Assembly (NCBI GenBank): GCA_015063795.1
Contig: SVTL01000001.1
Span: 361,614 to 425,613, forward strand
Length of the DNA stretch: 64,000 nt
Origin: Oscillospiraceae bacterium
GTDB taxonomy: Bacteria; Bacillota; Clostridia; Oscillospirales; CAG-272
Direction: 5' to 3'
Position 1 is the stretch's first letter, and every line of letters begins with the position of its first letter. Made by a program: the position numbers and the translations under genes. The notes beneath the pieces were generated by a model that saw only the letters and a program-made list of their open reading frames with translations, did not search any database and was not told the DNA's origin. Shown here piece by piece: positions 48,249 to 61,078 of the stretch.

Positions 48249-48277
48249 TTGACAGTATCACTTTAGCGTGGTAAAAT
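48249..48277 (+). promoter_or_regulatory. Promoter of the branched-chain amino acid operon
   Basis: TTGACA (48249-48254), 17 bp, TAAAAT (48272-48277). Transcription from about 48284 produces the T-box leader. Confidence 0.88.
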
Positions 48278-48283
48278 GTCACC

Positions 48284-48765
48284 AATTCCATAACAACAAA
48301 AGCGATGACGAAGAATGGTCGCGGAGAGTTGCCTTTCAGAGAGCCGATGGTCGGTGCGAATCGGTGTGCATATTCCCGTGTCCTCTCACTTCCGAGCCGG
48401 AAGCCCGAGGCTGCAAAGCGTGTAGGACAACCCGTGTGTGCTACGTTAGTGCATAGAGGTTGATAGACTTCGATGATAAAGGCGTCGATGAAGACGGAAA
48501 CAGCAACGAATTTCTCAGAGAGTCGGGGAGGGTGCGATCCCGATAAAGGACTGCTGATTTCCCATCCCTTCTGAGCCGGAAGCCCCAAAGGTTTCAACAC
48601 CCAGTAGGCGTTTCCCGTGTGTGCTACGTCAGTGCATAGAAGTTGTTGGTCTTCGAAGAGGTGGCGGATTGTCAGATCCGCAATTTGAGTGGTACCGCGA
48701 GTGCTGATTTTGATTTCACACCCGTCTCAAAGCAAAACAAAGGCTTTGAGGCGGTTTTTGTTTTT
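48284..48765 (+). ncRNA. T-box leader with two stem I modules and one antiterminator
   Basis: The T-box sequence TGGTACCGCG is at 48690-48699. The antiterminator pairs TTTGAG (48684-48689) with CTCAAA (48726-48731), which is also the 5' arm of the terminator (48722-48733 with 48743-48754, then a T run). Upstream, two similar modules of about 170 bases (about 48304-48474 and 48484-48655) each contain the AGAGAG and GTGCGA apical elements of stem I, a shared GAGCCGGAAGCC and a shared GTGTGTGCTACGT block. By alignment the specifier is CTC (Leu) at 48385-48387 in the first and ATC (Ile) at 48563-48565 in the second. Only the second is followed by a T-box sequence. T-box identity is firm; the specifier calls are less so. 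Confidence 0.9.
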
Positions 48766-48815: not shown

Positions 48816-50006
48816 ATGCTCTCACTTGACAAGGTCTTTAACGCACAGACGGTGCTGAAAAGCATCATCCGTGAAACCAATGTCGTTCGCGCATACGGCA
48901 TCGCGACCGACTGCGAGCTCTACCTGAAGCCCGAAAATCTACAGATCACCGGATCGTTCAAGGTCCGCGGCTCGGCTTATAAGATTGCCATGCTGTCCGA
49001 TGAGGAGAAAGCCAAAGGTGTCATCGCCTGCTCGGCGGGAAATCACGCACAGGGCGTGGCATTGGCAGCAACAAAAAACGGCATCAAATCGCTGATCTGT
49101 CTGCCCGACACCGCTCCCATCTCAAAGGTGGAAGCAACCAAGGCCTTCGGCGCCGATGTTTGTCTGGTGGAGGGCTGTTACGACGACGCCTACCAAAGAG
49201 CATTGGAGCTGAAGGAGATCGAGGGATATACCTTCGTCCATCCCTTTGATGACGAAAACGTGATCGCCGGGCAGGGAACCATCGCTCTGGAAATCTTCAA
49301 CGAGCTGGATGACATCGATGCGATCGTTGTTCCCATCGGCGGAGGCGGTCTGATCTCGGGCATTGCTTATACCGTGAAGCAGATCCGCCCGTCAGTGAAG
49401 GTATACGGGGTACAGGTGGCCGGAGCTCCAAGCATGTACAATTCGGTGAAGAACGGCGGGATCGAATGCCTCAATTCGGTTTCCACCATTGCCGACGGCA
49501 TTGCCGTGAAGAAGCCTGGCGAAAACACCTATGCGCTGGTTAAGGAGTATGTGGACGAGATCACTCTTGTAACCGACGATGAGGTATCCAGCGCTATCCT
49601 TGCTCTCATTGAGAAGCAGAAGATGATTGCCGAGGGCGCGGGTGCAACGGCCGTCGCAGCTGTGATGACCGGCAAATTTGACCTGAAAGGAAAGCGCGTG
49701 GTGGCGGTGGTTTCGGGCGGTAACATCGATGTGACCAGTCTCTCCCGCGTCATCGATCGCGGACTGCTCAATTCGGGACGTTCAACAAGCCTGCTCATCG
49801 AGCTGATTGACAAGCCGGGACAGTTGAAGGACATCTCCCGCATCATCGCCGATTGCGGCGGCAACGTGACCGGAGTTCACTATGAAAAGGGCAACACCGA
49901 GAGCGTTAACGGCTGTTTTTTGCGCATCGAAATGGAAACACGCGATTTCAAGCATGTCAACCTTATCATGCAGACACTGCGTGAGGAAGGTTTTAAGATC
50001 GTATAA
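48816..50006 (+). CDS. ilvA: Threonine ammonia-lyase
   Basis: A 396-residue pyridoxal-phosphate enzyme that deaminates threonine to 2-oxobutanoate, the first step to isoleucine. The PLP lysine is Lys49 in TGSFKVRGS; the phosphate loop is VPIGGGGLISG. A C-terminal ACT-like domain (about 325-396, LLIELIDKPGQLKDISRIIA) provides feedback sensing. The length of about 400 with a single ACT domain is that of the Clostridia/TdcB-like form, but the place at the head of the ilv-leu operon argues for a biosynthetic role. AAAGGCGG precedes the ATG. Confidence 0.96.
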   Translation: MLSLDKVFNAQTVLKSIIRETNVVRAYGIATDCELYLKPENLQITGSFKVRGSAYKIAMLSDEEKAKGVIACSAGNHAQGVALAATKNGIKSLICLPDTAPISKVEATKAFGADVCLVEGCYDDAYQRALELKEIEGYTFVHPFDDENVIAGQGTIALEIFNELDDIDAIVVPIGGGGLISGIAYTVKQIRPSVKVYGVQVAGAPSMYNSVKNGGIECLNSVSTIADGIAVKKPGENTYALVKEYVDEITLVTDDEVSSAILALIEKQKMIAEGAGATAVAAVMTGKFDLKGKRVVAVVSGGNIDVTSLSRVIDRGLLNSGRSTSLLIELIDKPGQLKDISRIIADCGGNVTGVHYEKGNTESVNGCFLRIEMETRDFKHVNLIMQTLREEGFKIV

Positions 50007-50041
50007 AGGCATCAAGTGAGTATTAAGAAAGGAAGATTGTT

Positions 50042-50419
50042 ATGATTCAGAACATTCAGACAAAGAACGCCCCTGCGGCTATCGGACCTTATTCGCAGGC
50101 TGTTTGCGTTGGTAATCTTATTTTCACCTCGGGGCAGATCCCGTTGGATCCCGAAAGCGGACTGGTGGTTGGCAAGGATATCACCGAGCAGACCGAACGA
50201 GTGTGCATGAATCTCAAAGCCGTGCTGGAAGCGGCGGGAAGCTCGGTGCAGAGCGTTGTCAAAACCGTCTGCTTTTTGAGCGAGATGGCGGATTTTGCGG
50301 CCTTCAATGAGGTATATGCAAGATACTTCACCGAAAAGCCTGCGCGCTCCTGTGTGGCAGTCAAGGCATTGCCCAAGGGGGTTCTGGTCGAGATTGAGGC
50401 CATCGCCGAAAAAGAGTAA
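50042..50419 (+). CDS. ridA: Reactive intermediate/imine deaminase RidA
   Basis: A 125-residue trimeric YjgF/YER057c/UK114 protein that hydrolyses 2-aminoacrylate and 2-aminocrotonate, enamine intermediates released by IlvA. It begins with [17 protein letters not shown] and contains [13 protein letters not shown], and near the end [22 protein letters not shown] with the conserved Arg that binds the carboxylate. Placement directly after ilvA (36 bases) matches this job. AAAGGAAG lies before the ATG. Confidence 0.96.
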
Positions 50420-50444
50420 AAAGGACAGTCAGGAGTCGAACAAC

Positions 50445-52118
50445 ATGATGGACGCAAGCAAATATCGCGTTGGCTATTATCCCGTTGGGAAGGAATACAA
50501 CAAATGGGTGGGGAAGGATCACGTGGAAAAAGCACCGGTCTGGTGCAGTGTGGATATGCGCGACGGCAACCAAAGCCTGGTGATCCCCATGAATTTAGAG
50601 GAAAAGTTGGAGTATTTCAAGGTGCTCTGCGACGTGGGCTTCAAAGAGATCGAGGTGGGCTTTCCCGCTGCCAGCGAGACCGAGTATGAATTTTTGCGCA
50701 CGCTGATCGATCAGAACCTGATCCCGCCCGATGTGACCGTTCAGGTGCTGACACAGTGCCGCGAGCACATCATCCGCAAGACCTTTGATGCCTGCAAGGG
50801 TGCGCCCAATGCGATCATCCATTTTTACAATGCAACCAGCGTGGCACAGCGCGAGCAGGTTTTCAAAATGTCAAAGGAAGAGATCAAGCAGATCGCGGTG
50901 GAGGGAGCCGAGCAGGTAAAAAAACTGGCGGACGAATATGAGGGCAGCTTCCGTTTTGAGTATTCCCCCGAATCGTTCACGGGAACCGAGCCCGAGTATG
51001 CGCTGGAGGTCTGCAACGCCGTTCTGGATGTGCTTCAGCCCGGCGCAGAGAACAACGTGATCATCAATCTGCCCGTGACCGTGGAGATGAGTCTGCCTCA
51101 TGTGTACGCCTCGCAGGTGGAATACATGAGCGAGAATTTGAAGTACCGCGAGTTTGTCACCCTGTCGCTCCATCCGCATAACGACCGCGGAACCGGCGTG
51201 GCCGATACCGAGCTGGCTCTTCTGGCAGGAGCTGACCGCGTGGAAGGAACGCTGTTCGGCAACGGCGAGCGGACCGGAAACGTGGATATCATCACCTTAG
51301 CGCTGAACCTGTATTCCCACGGCGTGGATCCGAGGCTGGATCTGTCGGATATGAATACACTGGTGGAAAAATACGAGCGATGCACCCGCATGCACGTCTA
51401 CGAGCGTGCCCCCTACGCCGGTGCGCTGGTCTTTGCCGCCTTCTCGGGCTCTCACCAGGATGCCATCGCCAAGGGCATGAAATACCGTGCCAAGAACAAG
51501 ATGCACCGGTGGAATGTCCCTTACATTCCCATCGATCCGACCGACATCGGACGTACCTACGATGCCGACGTGATCCGCGTCAACTCTCAGTCTGGCAAGG
51601 GCGGCATCGGGTATCTGCTGGAGCAGAGCTTTGGCTACAACCTGCCTCCGAAGATGCGCGAGCATTTCAGCTACGTTTGCAAGGACATTTCCGACCGCGG
51701 TCACAAGGAGCTCAAGCCGGACGAGATCTTTTCCATCTTCGAGGAAGGCTACCTCAATCTGGACAGCGGCATTCGCGTGACCGATTTCGACTTTATGCGT
51801 GAGGGCGATGCGGTGAAGATCACCATCACCTTTGAGCGTAACGGCATCGAGACCGAGATGGAGGCTGAGGGCAATGGTACGCTGAACGCAGTCAACAACG
51901 CTCTCCGCCAATTCACGGGTGAGCAGTATACGCTGGAGGTCTTCTCCCAGCACAGCATGCAGGGTCAGGGCTCTCGAAGCGTTGCCGCATCGTATATCGG
52001 GCTCGAGCGTGAGGACGGCAGACTGTTCTGGGGCGTCGGCACCGACACCGACGTGATCCGGGCCAGCACAAAAGCGCTTTTAAGCGCATTCCATAACATG
52101 ACCAAGGGAGGTATGTAA
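50445..52118 (+). CDS. leuA: 2-isopropylmalate synthase (LeuA2 type)
   Basis: A 557-residue enzyme condensing acetyl-CoA with 2-oxoisovalerate, the committed step of leucine synthesis. The barrel starts with [18 protein letters not shown], including the Arg-Asp of the active site; the metal-binding HxH is in [12 protein letters not shown], followed by [12 protein letters not shown]. The last 130 residues form the LeuA allosteric dimer domain, where leucine binds. The long N-terminal [11 protein letters not shown] segment marks the LeuA2 branch found in actinobacteria and many Clostridia. I start at the ATG at 50445 (AGGAG site); the open frame extends back into ridA. Confidence 0.96.
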
Positions 52119-52120
52119 GT

Positions 52121-53380
52121 ATGGGCATGACGATGACACAAAAGATCCTTGCTTCTCACGCAGGATTGGAATGCGTATCCGCCGGTCAGCTGATCAACGC
52201 GAAATTAGACATCGTTTTGGGGAATGATATCACCACTCCCGTTGCTGTCAACGAGTTCAAGAAAGCGGGCTTTGATCGTCTTTTTGATCCGAACCGCGTG
52301 GCAATCGTTTTAGACCATTTTGTGCCGAATAAGGACATCAAGGCGGCGGAGCAAAGCAAGACCTGCCGTGAATTCGCCTGCGCGCACTGCGTCAGCCACT
52401 TTTATGACGTGGGAAAGATGGGCATTGAGCATGCGCTTCTTCCCGAGCAGGGCGTTGTCACCGCAGGTGACTGCATCATCGGCGCGGACAGTCACACCTG
52501 TACTTACGGTGCGCTCGGCGCGTTTTCAACCGGCGTCGGCTCCACCGATATGGCCGCGGGGATGGCAACGGGCATGGCTTGGTTCAAGGTTCCTTCCGCC
52601 ATCCGCTTCAATTTGAAAGGCAAGCTTCCCGCCAATTGCAGCGGTAAGGACGTGATCTTGACCATCATCGGCCGCATCGGCGTGGACGGCGCGCTGTATA
52701 AGAGCATGGAATTTACGGGGGAGGGCGCGCACAGCCTGTCGATGGATGACCGCCTCTGCATCTGCAACATGGCCGTCGAGGCGGGGGCCAAAAACGGCAT
52801 TTTCCCCGTGGACGAGGTGACCATGGCCTATCTGAACGGACGAAGCGAGCGAGAGCCGGTCGTCTTTGAAGCCGATGCGGATGCGGAATACGAGCAGACC
52901 ATTGATATCGATCTTTCACAGATCGTTCCCACCGTCGCCTGCCCACATCTGCCCGAAAACACTCATCCGGCAAGCGAGCTTCATCACATCAAGGTCGATC
53001 AGGTGGTGATCGGCTCCTGCACCAACGGCAGGCTGGAGGATATGGAAGCCGCTTATCGCATCCTCAACGGCAACCGGATTGCAAACGGCGTTCGCTGCAT
53101 CATCATCCCCGGCACCATGCAGATCCTGCGCGAATGCGTCCTGCGCGGCTGGTATACCGCCTTTCTTGATGCAGGTGCAGTGGTCTCCACTCCCACCTGC
53201 GGCCCCTGCCTCGGCGGCTACATGGGCATTCTCGCGGCCGGTGAGAAATGCCTTGCCACCACCAACCGCAACTTTGTCGGACGCATGGGGCATGTGGAAA
53301 GCGAAGTGTATCTGGCCTCGCCCCACACCGCCGCGGCGACCGCTCTTGCCGGATACATCACCGAATATCAGGAGGGCTGA
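52121..53380 (+). CDS. leuC: 3-isopropylmalate dehydratase large subunit
   Basis: A 419-residue aconitase-family subunit, with LeuD isomerising 2- to 3-isopropylmalate. The 4Fe-4S cluster cysteines are in [13 protein letters not shown] and [10 protein letters not shown]. Substrate-side motifs include [16 protein letters not shown] and [14 protein letters not shown]. The ATG lies two bases after the leuA stop and uses the GGGAGG at the end of leuA. Length is that of the archaeal-type/HacA-like LeuC group common in Clostridia. Confidence 0.97.
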
Positions 53381-53381
53381 C

Positions 53382-53879
53382 ATGAACACACAGGGAAAGG
53401 TTTTCAAATACGCCGACAATGTGGACACCGATGTCATCATCCCTGCCCGCTATCTGAATACGCCCGATGCCAAGGAGCTGGCGCTTCACTGCATGGAGGA
53501 CATCGATAAGGAGTTTGTCAAAAACGTCAAAAAAGGCGATGTGATCGTGGCCGGCTGGAACTTCGGCTGCGGCTCCTCCCGCGAGCACGCACCGCTGGTC
53601 ATCAAGACCTGCGGAACAGGATGCGTGATTGCCAAAAGCTTCGCGCGCATCTTTTACCGAAACGCCATCAACATCGGTCTTCCCATCCTCGAATGCGAGC
53701 AGGCGGCGGAGGAAATCGAAGCCGCTGACGAGGTGGCCGTGGATTTTGACACGGGGCTGATCACGAACCTGACTACGGGCAAAACATACAAAGCCCAGCC
53801 CTTTCCGCCCTTCATTCAGAGCATCATCCAAAGCGGAGGTCTTCTCAAATCCCTGAAAGAAGGCGAAGGATATGAATAA
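53382..53879 (+). CDS. leuD: 3-isopropylmalate dehydratase small subunit
   Basis: A 165-residue partner of LeuC carrying the swivelling aconitase domain. Features are the start [20 protein letters not shown], the loop [14 protein letters not shown] that contacts substrate, and [16 protein letters not shown]. The ATG at 53382 lies one base after the leuC stop; the open frame extends further into leuC without a ribosome site. The end overlaps leuB by eight bases. Confidence 0.97.
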
Positions 53880-54951
53880 AACCATCGCGCTCATCCGCGG
53901 CGACGGCATCGGTCCCGAGATTGTCGAGCAGGCGCAGAGGGTATTAAACAAGGTTGCCGAGCTTTACGGACACCGCTTCTCTTACACCGACGTAGCCATG
54001 GGCGGATGTGCCATCGATCAATACGGCGATCCTCTGCCCGAAAGCGAATTGAAAAAGTGCCTTGCATCCGACAGCGTTTTGCTGGGGGCGGTCGGCGGAC
54101 CGAAATGGAACGATGTTCCCGGTACCATGCGTCCGGAAAAGGGGCTTCTCCGACTCCGTGCCGGCATGGGCGTGTATTCCAATAACCGTCCCGCTAAGAT
54201 CTGGCCGCAGCTGGCCGACGCCTCTCCGCTGAAGCGATCCATCGTCGATGAGGGCATTGATTTCATCATCGTCCGCGAGCTGATCGGCGGCATCTACTTC
54301 GGCGAGCATAAAACCGAGACCGTTGACGGGAAAACGACTGCCATTGATGTGCTGACCTATGGCGAGCACGAGATCGAGCGCATCGGCCGCATCGGCTTCG
54401 AAACCGCACGCAAGCGCGGCAAAAGGCTTTGCTCGGTGGAAAAGAGCAATGTGCTCGATTCCAGCCGCCTCTGGAAAAAGGTGATGCACCGACTTGCTGA
54501 GGAATACCCCGATGTGGAGCTGTCAGACATGCTGGTGGACAACTGCGCGATGCAGATCGTGAAAAATCCCTCTCAGTTTGATGTGCTTGTCACCGAGAAT
54601 ATGTTCGGCGACATTCTCTCCGACGAGGCGTCCATGATCACGGGCTCCATCGGTATGATACCGTCCTCAAGCTTAGGATCCTCCGCCTGCGGTCTTTATG
54701 AGCCCATTCACGGATCGGCACCCGACATAGCGGGCATGGATCTGGCCAATCCCATCGGCACCATCCTATCCGCGGCGATGATGCTTCGCTTCAGCTTCGA
54801 TCTGCCGCGTGAAGCCGATGCCATCGAAAAAGCGGTCGCCGCCTATCTTGACGCAGGCTACCGCACCGCCGACATCATGAGCGAAGGCATGAAACAGGTC
54901 GGCTGCCGCGCATGCGGCGACATCATCATTGAATCTCTTAGAAAGGAATGA
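53872..54951 (+). CDS. leuB: 3-isopropylmalate dehydrogenase
   Basis: A 359-residue NAD-dependent enzyme oxidising and decarboxylating 3-isopropylmalate. It starts [17 protein letters not shown]; substrate-binding arginines are in [21 protein letters not shown] and [16 protein letters not shown]; Mg-binding aspartates are in [10 protein letters not shown] and [12 protein letters not shown]. The C-terminal [18 protein letters not shown] is typical. It overlaps leuD by eight bases and ilvB by four, so translation is coupled. Confidence 0.98.
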
Positions 54952-56626
54952 ACGATATGATTCTTTCAGGCGCAGACATCCTTGTGAAAACCTTGATCGA
55001 GCAGGGTTGTGACACCGTCTTCGGCTATCCGGGCGGTCAGATCCTGAACGTGTACGAAAGTCTGTACACCTATCAAAACGAAATCCGCCACATTCTCACC
55101 GCCCATGAGCAGGGTGCATCCCATGCCGCCGATGGCTATGCGCGGTCCACAGGCAAGGTGGGTGTTGTCATCTCCACCTCCGGCCCCGGAGCCACCAATC
55201 TGGTCACCGGTATCGCCACTGCCTTCCTCGATTCCATCCCCATGGTCGCCATCTGCGGCAACGTGCCCACCACGCAGATCGGCACCGACAGCTTCCAGGA
55301 GCTGGATATCACCGGCGTTACGCTGCCCATCACAAAGCATAATTATTTTGTTCGAACGGTTGAAGAGCTGGCCGATACCGTCCGTGAGGCCTTTGTTCTC
55401 GCACGCTCCGGACGTCCCGGTCCCGTGCTGATCGATATCCCCAAGGATGTGCAGATCGCCAAATGCGAGTATACGCCGAAAGCTCCCTTTGAGGCGGAGG
55501 AGGCGCAGGCCGCCAAGGATGTCCGCATCGAAGAGGCCGCTTCTTACATCAACAGCGCGAAAGCGCCGTACATCTACTTCGGCGGCGGCCTGATCAACGC
55601 CGAGGCGCAGGAGGAGATGCTGGCTCTGGCCGACAAGATCGATGCTCCCATCGGATGCTCGCTGATGGGCATCTCGGGTATTCCCACCGACCATCCTCGC
55701 TTCCTCGGAATGCAGGGCATGCACGGGCATTATGCCTCCTCCATGGCCATGCACAATGCCGATCTGATCATCTCGCTGGGTGTCCGCTTCAACGACCGTG
55801 TGACCGGAAACCGCGCCAAATTCGCAACGGGTGCGAAGATCATCCACATCGATGTGGACGGCTCCGAGCTTTGCAAGACGGTCAATGCGGTCTGCGGACT
55901 GCGCGGCGATGTGAAAAAAACGCTTCAGAAGCTGCTTCCCCTTGTCAACGAGAGCAGGAAAGAGGACTGGTCGGCTAAGATCGCTCAGCTTCGTGAGGAA
56001 GAAACAACGGTCACCGACAACCGCGAGGGCATGACGCCCCGTCGCGCGATCCTCACGCTGAACAAGCATTTGGGCAAGAACACGGCGGTCTGCACCGATG
56101 TCGGACAGCATCAGATGTGGGCTGCTCAGACCGTGAAGATGCAAACGCCCCGCCGATTCCTGTCCAGCGGCGGGCTCGGAACGATGGGCTTCGGCTTCGG
56201 CGCTGCCATCGGTGCCGCCTTCGGAACGAAGGAAAGAAGTGTTCTGGTAACGGGTGACGGCAGCTTCGGCATGAATGTCAATGAGCTGGCTACTGCCGTT
56301 TCTTATAAGATCCCGATCGTGATCCTGCTTTTGAACAACGGTGTTTTGGGCATGGTCCGCCAGTGGCAGACGCTCTTCTTCAACAAGCACTATTCCAACA
56401 CCATCCTGGATCGCAAGACCGATTTTTGCGCATTGGCGCATGCCTTCGGTGCCGAGGGCGAGACGGTCAAAACGCCGGAGGAGCTGGATGCCGCTCTGGC
56501 AAGAGCCTTCCGCTGCGAAGGACCGTATGTGGTCGATTGCCGCATCGATAAGGATGAATTTGTTCTTCCCATGCTTCCGCCCGGCGGCAGTATGGATGAC
56601 ATCATTGTAAAACTGGAGGTGGAAAA

Positions 56627-56630
<4 letters not shown>
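54948..56630 (+). CDS. ilvB: Acetolactate synthase large subunit
   Basis: A 560-residue thiamine-diphosphate enzyme making acetolactate (to Val and Leu) and acetohydroxybutyrate (to Ile). The catalytic Glu is in TAHEQGASHAADGYAR; the ThDP/Mg motif is GDGSFGMNVNELATA...LLLNN. The central FAD-type domain (about 190-330) contains LMGISGIPTDHPRFLGMQGM. The start overlaps the leuB stop (ATGA), and its own stop overlaps ilvN the same way. The full set of key residues makes it a biosynthetic rather than catabolic (AlsS) enzyme, supported by the regulatory subunit next door. Confidence 0.98.
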
Positions 56631-58224
<1,594 letters not shown>

Positions 58225-58238
58225 GAAGAGGGAAGCGT

Positions 58239-59909
58239 ATGAAAAAGGAAAACATTGTTGACGGCGCGCAGAATGCGCCGCACCGCAGTCTCTTTCACGC
58301 GCTTGGGCTGACTTCCGAGGAGCAGTCGCGTCCGCTGATCGGCATCGTCAGCTCTTACAATGAGATCGTTCCCGGGCATATGAACATCGATAAGATCGTG
58401 GATGCGGTCAAGATCGGTGTGGCCATGGCCGGCGGCACGCCCATCGTCTTTCCTGCGATCGCGGTCTGTGACGGCATCGCCATGGGACACACGGGCATGA
58501 AGTATTCGCTGGTCACCCGCGATCTGATCGCCGATTCCACCGAGGCGATGGCTCTCGCTCACGGCTTTGACGGTCTGGTGATGGTGCCCAACTGCGATAA
58601 AAACGTGCCCGGTCTGCTGATGGCGGCCGCGCGTGTGAACATCCCCACTGTCTTTGTCAGCGGCGGTCCCATGCTGGCAGGACGGGTAGACGGCAAAAAG
58701 ACCAGTCTTTCCAGTATGTTTGAGGCGGTCGGCTCTTACGCCGCAGGCAAGATCAGTGAGGAGAAGCTGACCGAATACGAATGCAAGACCTGCCCCACCT
58801 GCGGCTCCTGCTCGGGTATGTACACCGCCAACTCCATGAACTGTCTCACCGAGGCGCTCGGCATGGGACTGAAGGGCAACGGCACCATTCCCGCTGTCTA
58901 TTCGGCGCGCATCGAGCTGGCCAAGCACGCGGGCATGGCGGTGATGGAGCTTGTGCGAAAGAACATCCGTCCGCGCGATATCATGACCGAAAAGGCGCTG
59001 ATGAATGCGCTCACCGTGGATATGGCGCTGGGCTGCTCGACCAACAGCATGCTGCACCTGCCGGCCATCGCGCACGAATGCGGCGTGGAGCTGAATCTGG
59101 ACATTGCCAACCGCATCAGCGCCAAAACGCCCAATCTCTGCCATCTGGCCCCTGCAGGGCGCACGTATATGGAGGATCTGGACGAGGCTGGCGGTGTGTA
59201 TGCGGTGATGAACGAGCTGACCAAAAAGGATCTGCTCTCCACCGATTGCCTGACCGTCACGGGCAAGACGATCGGCGAAAACATTGCAGGTTGTATCAAC
59301 CGCGATCCCGAGGTCATCCGTCCCATCGACAATCCGTACAGCGAAACGGGCGGCATTGCGGTCCTGCGCGGCAATCTGGCCCCCGAGGGAAGCGTGGTCA
59401 AGCGATCGGCGGTTCTGCCCGAGATGCTGGTCCACAAAGGTCCTGCCCGTGTGTTCGACTGCGAGGAGGACGCACAGGCGGCCATCAACGCCGGAAAGAT
59501 CGTGGCAGGCGATGTGGTGGTCATCCGCTATGAGGGCCCGAAGGGCGGTCCGGGTATGCGTGAGATGCTCAATCCCACCTCGGCCATCATGGGCATGGGG
59601 CTGGGCAGCAGCGTGGCGCTGATCACCGACGGACGCTTCAGCGGCGCCACAAGAGGTGCCTGCATCGGTCATATCACTCCCGAGGCCGCTTCGGGCGGAC
59701 TGATCGGCGTGGTGGAGGAGGGGGATCTTATCAGCATCAACATCCCCGAAAACCGCATCGAGCTGTTGGTGGACGAAGCGATCCTGGCCGAGCGCATGAA
59801 GCACTTCGTTCCCAAGAAAAAGAAGCTTTCTGGCTATCTGAAGCGCTATGCGGCGCTGGTCTCGGGCGGTGCATCGGGTGCGATCCTGAACGATCCCGAG
59901 CAAGCATGA
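58239..59909 (+). CDS. ilvD: Dihydroxy-acid dehydratase
   Basis: A 556-residue iron-sulfur enzyme dehydrating the dihydroxy acids to the 2-oxo acids of Val and Ile. Cluster cysteines are in [21 protein letters not shown] and a third upstream or central Cys; [13 protein letters not shown] follows. The C-terminal swivel has [18 protein letters not shown] and [11 protein letters not shown]. It lies 14 bases after ilvC. Its stop overlaps the next gene in an ATGA, an unusual coupling to an ATPase. Confidence 0.98.
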
Positions 59910-61078
59910 AGGAGTTATACAACAGACTGAAAACCCTCTGCGTTTTCAGAGAGATTTTAAACGATTCCGTAATCGCGGCTCTGCAGAGCTTTCTGGAAAA
60001 GCCGGACAGCTCTGCTTATGCTGCCTTCGCGTCGGCGCTGTACGAGGCCAACGGCGGCGATCTGGCAGCCCATGTACGGCTCCTTTGCGAAAACAGCGCG
60101 AATGTGTATGTGAAAACGGTCGGTCGGGGCGAAGAGCCCGCGCGCTTTGTTTACAACGCCCTTCGCGCTGAGCTGGAGCTGCTGCAGCGCGTGTGCGCGC
60201 TGACCAAACGTGACCTCTGCTCGCAGATCGGTGAAACGGCAGATAGTGCCTTTCTGCCCGATTTTGCTTCGGAAGAGCTGCCGCTGAAGGAGATCTATCT
60301 CCACCGAACCGAAAACATTGGACGGTATGGTTATGGCATGTATGCCCGCCATACGGCGTTTGCCGTGGATGAGGAGAAAGGCATCGTTCCCGTCCGCCAC
60401 CCCGACAAAATCGCGCTTTCCCATCTGATCGCCTACGAAAGAGAGCGCGGGATCGTGCTGAACAACACCAAGGCGCTTTTGGCAGGCAAGCCGGCGGCCA
60501 ACATCCTGCTCAGCGGCGATGCGGGCACGGGCAAGTCCACCACGGTCAAGGCCGTTGCCAATGCGCTGAGCGGTGAGGGACTGCGGATCATCGAGATCCG
60601 TAAGGATCAGCTGCGGCTCATTCCGGGCATTCTCGACGAGCTGTCCGACAATCCGTTGAAGTTCATTCTCTTCATCGATGATCTCTCCTTCGGTAAGGAT
60701 GACGACAGCTTCAGTGCGCTCAAAGCGGTGCTGGAGGGCTCGGTCACGGCGCGATCAGGCAATGTTCTTGTGTATGCCACGTCCAACCGCCGACACATCG
60801 TCAAGGAGACCTTCTCCGACCGCGAGGGTGACGACATCCACCGCAATGACACCATGCAGGAGCTTGTCTCGCTCTCCGAGCGCTTCGGCATTCACATCAC
60901 CTTTTCCCGCCCGACCAAAGAGACCTATCTCCGCATCGTGCGCCATCTGACGGCGGAAAAGGGAATCGACATGGACGACACCGAACTGACGCTGTCGGCT
61001 GAACGCTTTGCGCTGGAGCGAGGCGGACGGTCGGCACGTCTGGCAGGGCAGTTCGTTGACAGCCTGCTATCGAGGTGA
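59906..61078 (+). CDS. DUF815 family ATP-binding protein
   Basis: A 390-residue AAA-type ATPase. Residues 1-190 are helical; DUF815 follows with Walker [11 protein letters not shown] (about 205-213) and Walker [11 protein letters not shown], then sensor-like [20 protein letters not shown] and the C-terminal [21 protein letters not shown]. Members are found as single genes in many bacteria without a known role. Here it overlaps the ilvD stop by four bases (ATGA), so it is produced with the branched-chain enzymes. Whether this is functional, for example assembly of the Fe-S dehydratases, or accidental is open. Confidence 0.9.

Follow-up and report, generated by a model that had tools for sequence, protein, structure and literature searches.

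The branched-chain amino acid (ilv/leu) operon of a gut bacterium of the Oscillospiraceae is preceded by a T-box leader in which two full decoding modules, each comprising stem I, stem II and the IIA/B (F-box) region, share one stem III, antiterminator and terminator. The leader occupies positions 48296-48752 of the window, the 64,000-nucleotide stretch of DNA that was analyzed. The first module carries a leucine specifier and the second an isoleucine specifier, and comparable leaders occur in 55 other species. We consider it probable that this is a two-sensor, one-switch leader, which would act as an OR gate for shortage of Leu or Ile over an operon that makes both.

Anatomy of the double leader

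An earlier note on this DNA had recognized two similar tandem modules with a set of shared sequence blocks. These are present at 48302-48471 (module 1) and 48481-48654 (module 2), and both carry the AGAGAG/GGUGCGA apical element, the GAGCCGGAAGCC block and the GUGUGUGCUACGU (F-box) block. Stem I of module 1, with its K-turn, specifier loop and apical element, spans 48302-48397, as seen from a fit of the Rfam T-box model (RF00230) to module 1 alone and from covariation across 54 sequences. It is followed by the stem II and IIA/B (F-box) region at 48398-48455, defined by the RF00230 alignment, a conserved GUGUAUGCUACGU block and the paired helices 4-5, and by a short closing hairpin at 48456-48471 (helix 6 of the module 1 covariation analysis, 99.7% paired). 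A linker of about 9 nt leads to stem I of module 2 (48481-48576), which is delineated by its RF00230 fit and by strong covariation over the module. The stem II and IIA/B region of module 2 lies at 48577-48638 (RF00230 alignment; helices 6-7 of the module 2 covariation analysis), and sequence and alignment identify the hairpin at 48639-48654 as the counterpart of the one closing module 1.

Downstream of these lie stem III (48664-48681; RF00230 alignment), the single antiterminator (48684-48731), and the single intrinsic terminator (48724-48764), which consists of a stem at 48724-48752 and a T-rich tail (fold of -14.6 kcal/mol, z -3.1). The RF00230 alignment and a fold of -11.1 kcal/mol define the antiterminator, with the T-box sequence UGGUACC (48690-48696) unpaired in a bulge. 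In the predicted folds the 5' arm of the terminator is the 3' arm of the antiterminator, and the two structures are mutually exclusive. The terminator was not listed by the terminator scan of the window because its 9-nt loop is larger than the scan's loop limit of 8. The two modules are thus served by just one UGGUACCGCG T-box and one terminator, which confirms a further claim of the earlier note, and what is missing from module 1 is exactly stem III, the T-box and the terminator. The sole good sigma-70-type promoter (TTGACA-17-TAAAAT, 48249-48277, 11 of 12 consensus matches) lies 5' of module 1; all these features are on the forward strand.

When RF00230 was run on the whole leader, a single match was obtained (48296-48732, 68.5 bits, E 1.7e-14), in which module 2 was absorbed as an insert of about 200 nt. 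Once the modules were cut apart, separate matches were recovered for module 1 alone, which has no antiterminator (50 bits, E 1.7e-10), and for module 2 with the T-box (67.8 bits, E 7.2e-15). All three scores are below the curated (gathering) cut-off of 93 bits for this family, as are those of 8 of the 10 T-boxes of the host genome, the double included. The match to the double leader spans 437 nt, against 169-296 nt for the others among the 10 matches in the genome. With stem I, stem II and IIA/B aligned in the covariance fits, and a UGGN antiterminator predicted by folding to exclude an intrinsic terminator, the leader is a T-box by anatomy.

These fits also place CUC (48385-48387) and AUC (48564-48566) at the specifier position, one nucleotide before the closing CUUC helix, in agreement with the published rule (PMC7778990). 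Such positions would be read by tRNA-Leu(GAG) and tRNA-Ile(GAU), respectively; the Leu and Ile specifiers are those that the earlier note had claimed, and none of the fits moved the specifier loops elsewhere. The two codons are 179 nt apart, in two separate stem I domains. The earlier estimate that the first module lies about 200 bases from the T-box needs a small correction: its 3' end is 219 nt away and the Leu specifier 302 nt.

Conservation and origin of the two modules

A pattern of two specifier-side stem I motifs and one T-box, with the specifiers left unconstrained, was searched in 84,980 species (one genome each) and gave 58 matches, of which 55, further to the window leader, are genuine. 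The other three (L088, L099 and L126) were discarded, as they do not have branched-chain codons at both specifier positions and are not followed by a branched-chain amino acid gene. The named species among the matches belong to Oscillospiraceae, Ruminococcus, Gemmiger and Candidatus Fournierella, two are titled Lachnospiraceae, and the rest are uncultured Clostridia; among the relatives of the window, the double is present in at least two families of the order.

All 110 specifiers of the 55 leaders are Leu, Val or Ile codons, in the pairs CUC/AUC (49 species), GUC/AUC (3), CUG/AUC (2) and AUC/CUC (1). Module 1 accordingly has a Leu codon in 51 species, a Val codon in 3 and an Ile codon in 1, and module 2 has AUC in 54 of the 55. 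The K-turn, specifier, apical motif, stem II and F-box of module 1 are kept in all 55 species, and the spacing of the modules is fairly fixed at 177-191 nt. Of 53 homologous leaders, 51 have a promoter comparable to that in the window ahead of module 1, and no promoter was found between the modules in these 53. Neither a T-box nor a terminator was found between the modules in the window or in the 55 homologues; GG-N-ACC matches at this place in five species were rejected as T-boxes, being the start of stem II.

Both modules show covariation. In module 1 (54 sequences) the T-box pairing holds in 98.4% of cells, and in module 2 in 98.9%, figures that are biased toward this structure, since the tested pairs were named from the Rfam fit and an RNAalifold consensus. 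Changes on both sides of a pair, which are free of this bias, affect 7 pairs in module 1 (30 cells, against a shuffled mean of 7.4) and 15 pairs in module 2 (98 cells). The covariation score of module 1 is 0.160 and that of module 2 is 0.291, compared with 0.117 and 0.163 under shuffling that leaves the relatedness among the sequences in place; 0 of 500 shuffles attained the observed score in either case, and the best slid controls reached 0.093 and 0.122. Covarying stem I pairs are among those of module 1, contrary to one refuting outcome named in the earlier note, a first module unable to form stem I. For module 1 the RNAalifold consensus had mixed stem I and IIA/B pairs and was replaced by pairs set by hand after the Rfam fit; the middle of its stem I, which is variable and aligns unreliably, was omitted. 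Single-sequence folding energies of both stem I domains were no better than those of shuffles and were excluded as evidence.

When 132 modules were placed in a tree, copies of module 1 clustered with the single Leu T-boxes and those of module 2 with the single Ile T-boxes, with few exceptions (support 0.966 and 0.963). On this grouping, the double arose mostly when a Leu leader was fused to an Ile leader and the first expression platform was lost, rather than by duplication in place. Single Ile and single Leu leaders are in turn nested among the doubles. In one leader (L124) the order is reversed, with Ile first and Leu second (AUC/CUC), and its two modules are sisters (0.999), so that this leader arose through an independent duplication and a change of one specifier. 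Judged from the sequences, then, the double design arose at least twice. The GUC (Val) specifier of module 1 in Fournierella is nested within the CUC group (support 0.965), and the tree indicates that in this clade the Leu specifier turned into a Val specifier (CUC to GUC). Two further leaders are of note in this context. A CUC/AUC double (L103, 3163-3576, strand -) has a Leu-type apical element in module 2, perhaps reflecting a separate origin or gene conversion between the modules, and a well conserved Ile module (AUC) in genome G033 (L018, 1501-1690) is followed by no recognizable T-box, making it a candidate remnant or rearranged leader.

The regulated operon and the logic of the switch

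The link to an Ile, Val and Leu operon made in the earlier note is borne out by NCBIfam matches to ilvA-ridA-leuA-leuC-leuD-leuB-ilvB-ilvN-ilvC-ilvD at 48816-59909 of the forward strand, leuD being named by its place between leuC and leuB and by product matches at the same place in homologous operons. A gene for a DUF815 AAA-type ATPase (59906-61078) follows ilvD and almost abuts the operon. Wherever the record reaches, the first gene after a double leader is ilvA or, in two cases, leuA. In relatives, single CUC T-boxes precede leuA in 8 cases and single AUC T-boxes precede ilvA or ilvD in 3, and for this reason the double can be understood as joining two single regulators of a joined operon; the exception is a single CUC T-box before ilvA (L028). 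The single Ile (AUC) T-boxes L026, L033 and L036 are followed by a protein at least 450-490 residues long with an HTH-like N-terminal start, matched in L033 by Pfam HTH_31/HTH_3, and this protein is a candidate Ile-responsive regulator or fused protein.

The specifiers also tend to follow the genes within the doubles. The sole operon seen in full behind a GUC/AUC leader of Fournierella is ilvA-B-N-C-D (L128), without leu genes; leuA is located elsewhere in Fournierella under its own single T-box of another type, the specifier of which is read as CUG (Leu) when aligned on GAGC. The leuA T-boxes of Gemmiger and Fournierella (L170-L174) differ clearly from the ilv/leu leaders in the sequence type of stem I and stem II. 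The match between specifier and operon is imperfect, because five doubles keep CUC with no leu gene seen in the operon (L100, L119, L121, L122 and L134; most of these records end early) and because of the single CUC T-box before ilvA. Taken with the conservation in the 55 other species and the covariation in both modules, this matching supports the Leu and Ile reading.

Host tRNAs were located with Rfam and ARAGORN. A tRNA-Leu(GAG) gene is present in the host genome, and tRNA-Ile(GAU) was not found in its incomplete draft assembly. All tRNA-Leu and all tRNA-Val of the host, and a tRNA-Ile(CAU) candidate, have A73, which fits UGGU, although A73 is common and the match is thus a check of compatibility only. 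The Thr and Gly tRNAs of the host have U73 and do not fit, and Trp, with G73, could form a wobble pair at most. On the Ile side, the match to UGGU is taken from the tRNA-Ile(CAU) candidate and from general knowledge of tRNAs.

From these elements we infer the following mechanism. Transcription would start 5' of module 1; module 1 would dock tRNA-Leu(GAG) and module 2 tRNA-Ile(GAU), each via its own specifier codon and apical contacts. The sole discriminator, namely stem III and the antiterminator, would then be able to pair through UGGU with the terminal ACCA of one or the other tRNA. An uncharged tRNA of either kind could stabilize the antiterminator by its 3' end, and RNA polymerase would read into the operon; with both charged, the terminator would form. 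The leader cannot be two checkpoints in series (an AND arrangement), because there is no terminator after module 1, and OR logic is the simplest working model and suits the operon, because the operon makes both Leu and Ile. One point against OR logic is the whole structured domain, module 2, that lies between module 1 and the antiterminator. The tRNA on module 1 would have to reach past it, as may be possible if the ends of the module 2 domain are close together, which we assume.

Three other modes of action deserve consideration. The leader could respond cooperatively, in an AND-like manner, with both modules binding tRNAs together and full read-through needing shortage of both Leu and Ile; we regard this as unlikely, if the least so of the three. 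The adjacent aptamers of glycine riboswitches, which share one expression platform, are cooperative (PMC9481103), and the fairly fixed spacing of the modules is in keeping with such an arrangement. However, one antiterminator pairs with one NCCA end at a time, the reversed order in L124 speaks against a fixed hierarchy, and under AND logic a cell short of just one amino acid would remain starved of it. Moreover, full tandem T-boxes, common on such operons, already provide AND logic (PMC12452182), and the loss of the first terminator points away from it.

Slightly less plausible still is that only the Ile module switches, module 1 being the remnant of a full Leu T-box that lost its stem III and antiterminator. 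That module 1 has no discriminator, and that single leaders nested among the doubles attest to gain or loss of modules, would be expected of a remnant, but module 1 retains its decoding elements, from the K-turn to the F-box, across the 55 species, and it shows covariation. Its specifier, moreover, is always a branched-chain codon, even where Leu gave way to Val in one clade, and the design arose at least twice, as L124 indicates. We give marginally less credence again to a modulating role, in which module 1 might, for instance, bring in or hold back tRNA-Leu, delay folding or tune the gain of the Ile switch. Such a role would fit both the lack of a stem III in module 1 and how far this module lies from the antiterminator, yet no precedent was found in the literature searched, and the tendency of the specifier to follow the regulated genes would be left unexplained. 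Finally, since the assembly behind the window is an incomplete draft, one might suspect an artefact, in that a full tandem T-box was collapsed during assembly or that the similarity is due to chance. This is refuted for practical purposes by the same architecture in 55 other assembled records, including those of Gemmiger sp. An87 and An194, which are not labelled MAG.

Relationship to other T-boxes and riboswitches

The double leader shares with the canonical transcriptional T-box (RF00230) a stem I with K-turn, specifier loop and apical element, as well as stem II, IIA/B, stem III, the UGGN antiterminator and the competing terminator, but differs in placing two decoding modules with different specifiers on one antiterminator. 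Full tandem T-boxes, as in the trp, thrS and ilv/leu operons, consist of two complete units with two terminators, and on branched-chain amino acid operons they are read as needing two uncharged tRNAs (PMC12452182). They resemble the double leader in having two T-box units in one leader and such operons among their targets, whereas the first unit of the double leader has no expression platform; neither in the window nor in the 55 homologues is module 1 followed by a T-box or terminator of its own, and identity with this class is ruled out. A T-box leader of Clostridium acetobutylicum likewise reads two tRNAs, those for Asn and Glu, through two overlapping codons in one specifier loop (Saad 2013, as described in PMC4052509). 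This two-codon type is excluded here by the 179 nt between the specifiers and by their placement in separate stem I domains.

Adjacent-aptamer riboswitches offer a closer parallel in layout. The tandem glycine and the guanine-PRPP riboswitches have two aptamers on one expression platform and small-molecule ligands, the guanine-PRPP pair forming an IMPLY gate and the glycine pair binding one ligand (PMC9481103). By the definition of this class (PMC12452182), the double leader also has two aptamers, one expression platform and a short linker (about 9 nt), but its ligands are tRNAs. In the literature searched, outside which lies the key survey of 2008, we found no description of a Leu/Ile T-box with two stem I domains and one antiterminator; an earlier report is possible.

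The double leader probably lets shortage of either amino acid turn on the operon. On balance, we also favor the more general view that it represents a natural two-input OR gate, in which two uncharged tRNAs on separate modules compete for one shared acceptor-end sensor, and that decoding and sensing of charging in T-boxes are separable domains that can be mixed and matched. The group provides natural controls in the form of conserved Leu and Ile doubles, a Val and Ile variant, an independent origin with reversed order, and single-module relatives. Two questions become testable with it: can a stem I module bring its tRNA to an antiterminator far away, and does an AND gate become an OR gate when the first terminator is removed? 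The group also provides a template for multi-input tRNA-sensing devices.

Partial doubling of T-boxes is also seen in the opposite half of the leader. In the partially tandem T-boxes that Vitreschak reportedly described in 2008, one stem I is followed by two antiterminator/terminator pairs, the mirror image of the double leader. A generic apical-motif pattern was run over 398 genomes of the phylum, a low-sensitivity scan whose matches were near the level of its backward control, and its two most T-box-like matches were L163, with the look of this reverse partial doubling, and L168, which was rejected as a doubled leader as it has no second stem I. L163 (1400-1950, strand -, genome G359) displays an apparent single stem I and then two T-box/antiterminator and terminator pairs (GGUGGCAACGCGG and GAGUGGCACCGCGG), and we take it to be a likely example of the partially tandem class.
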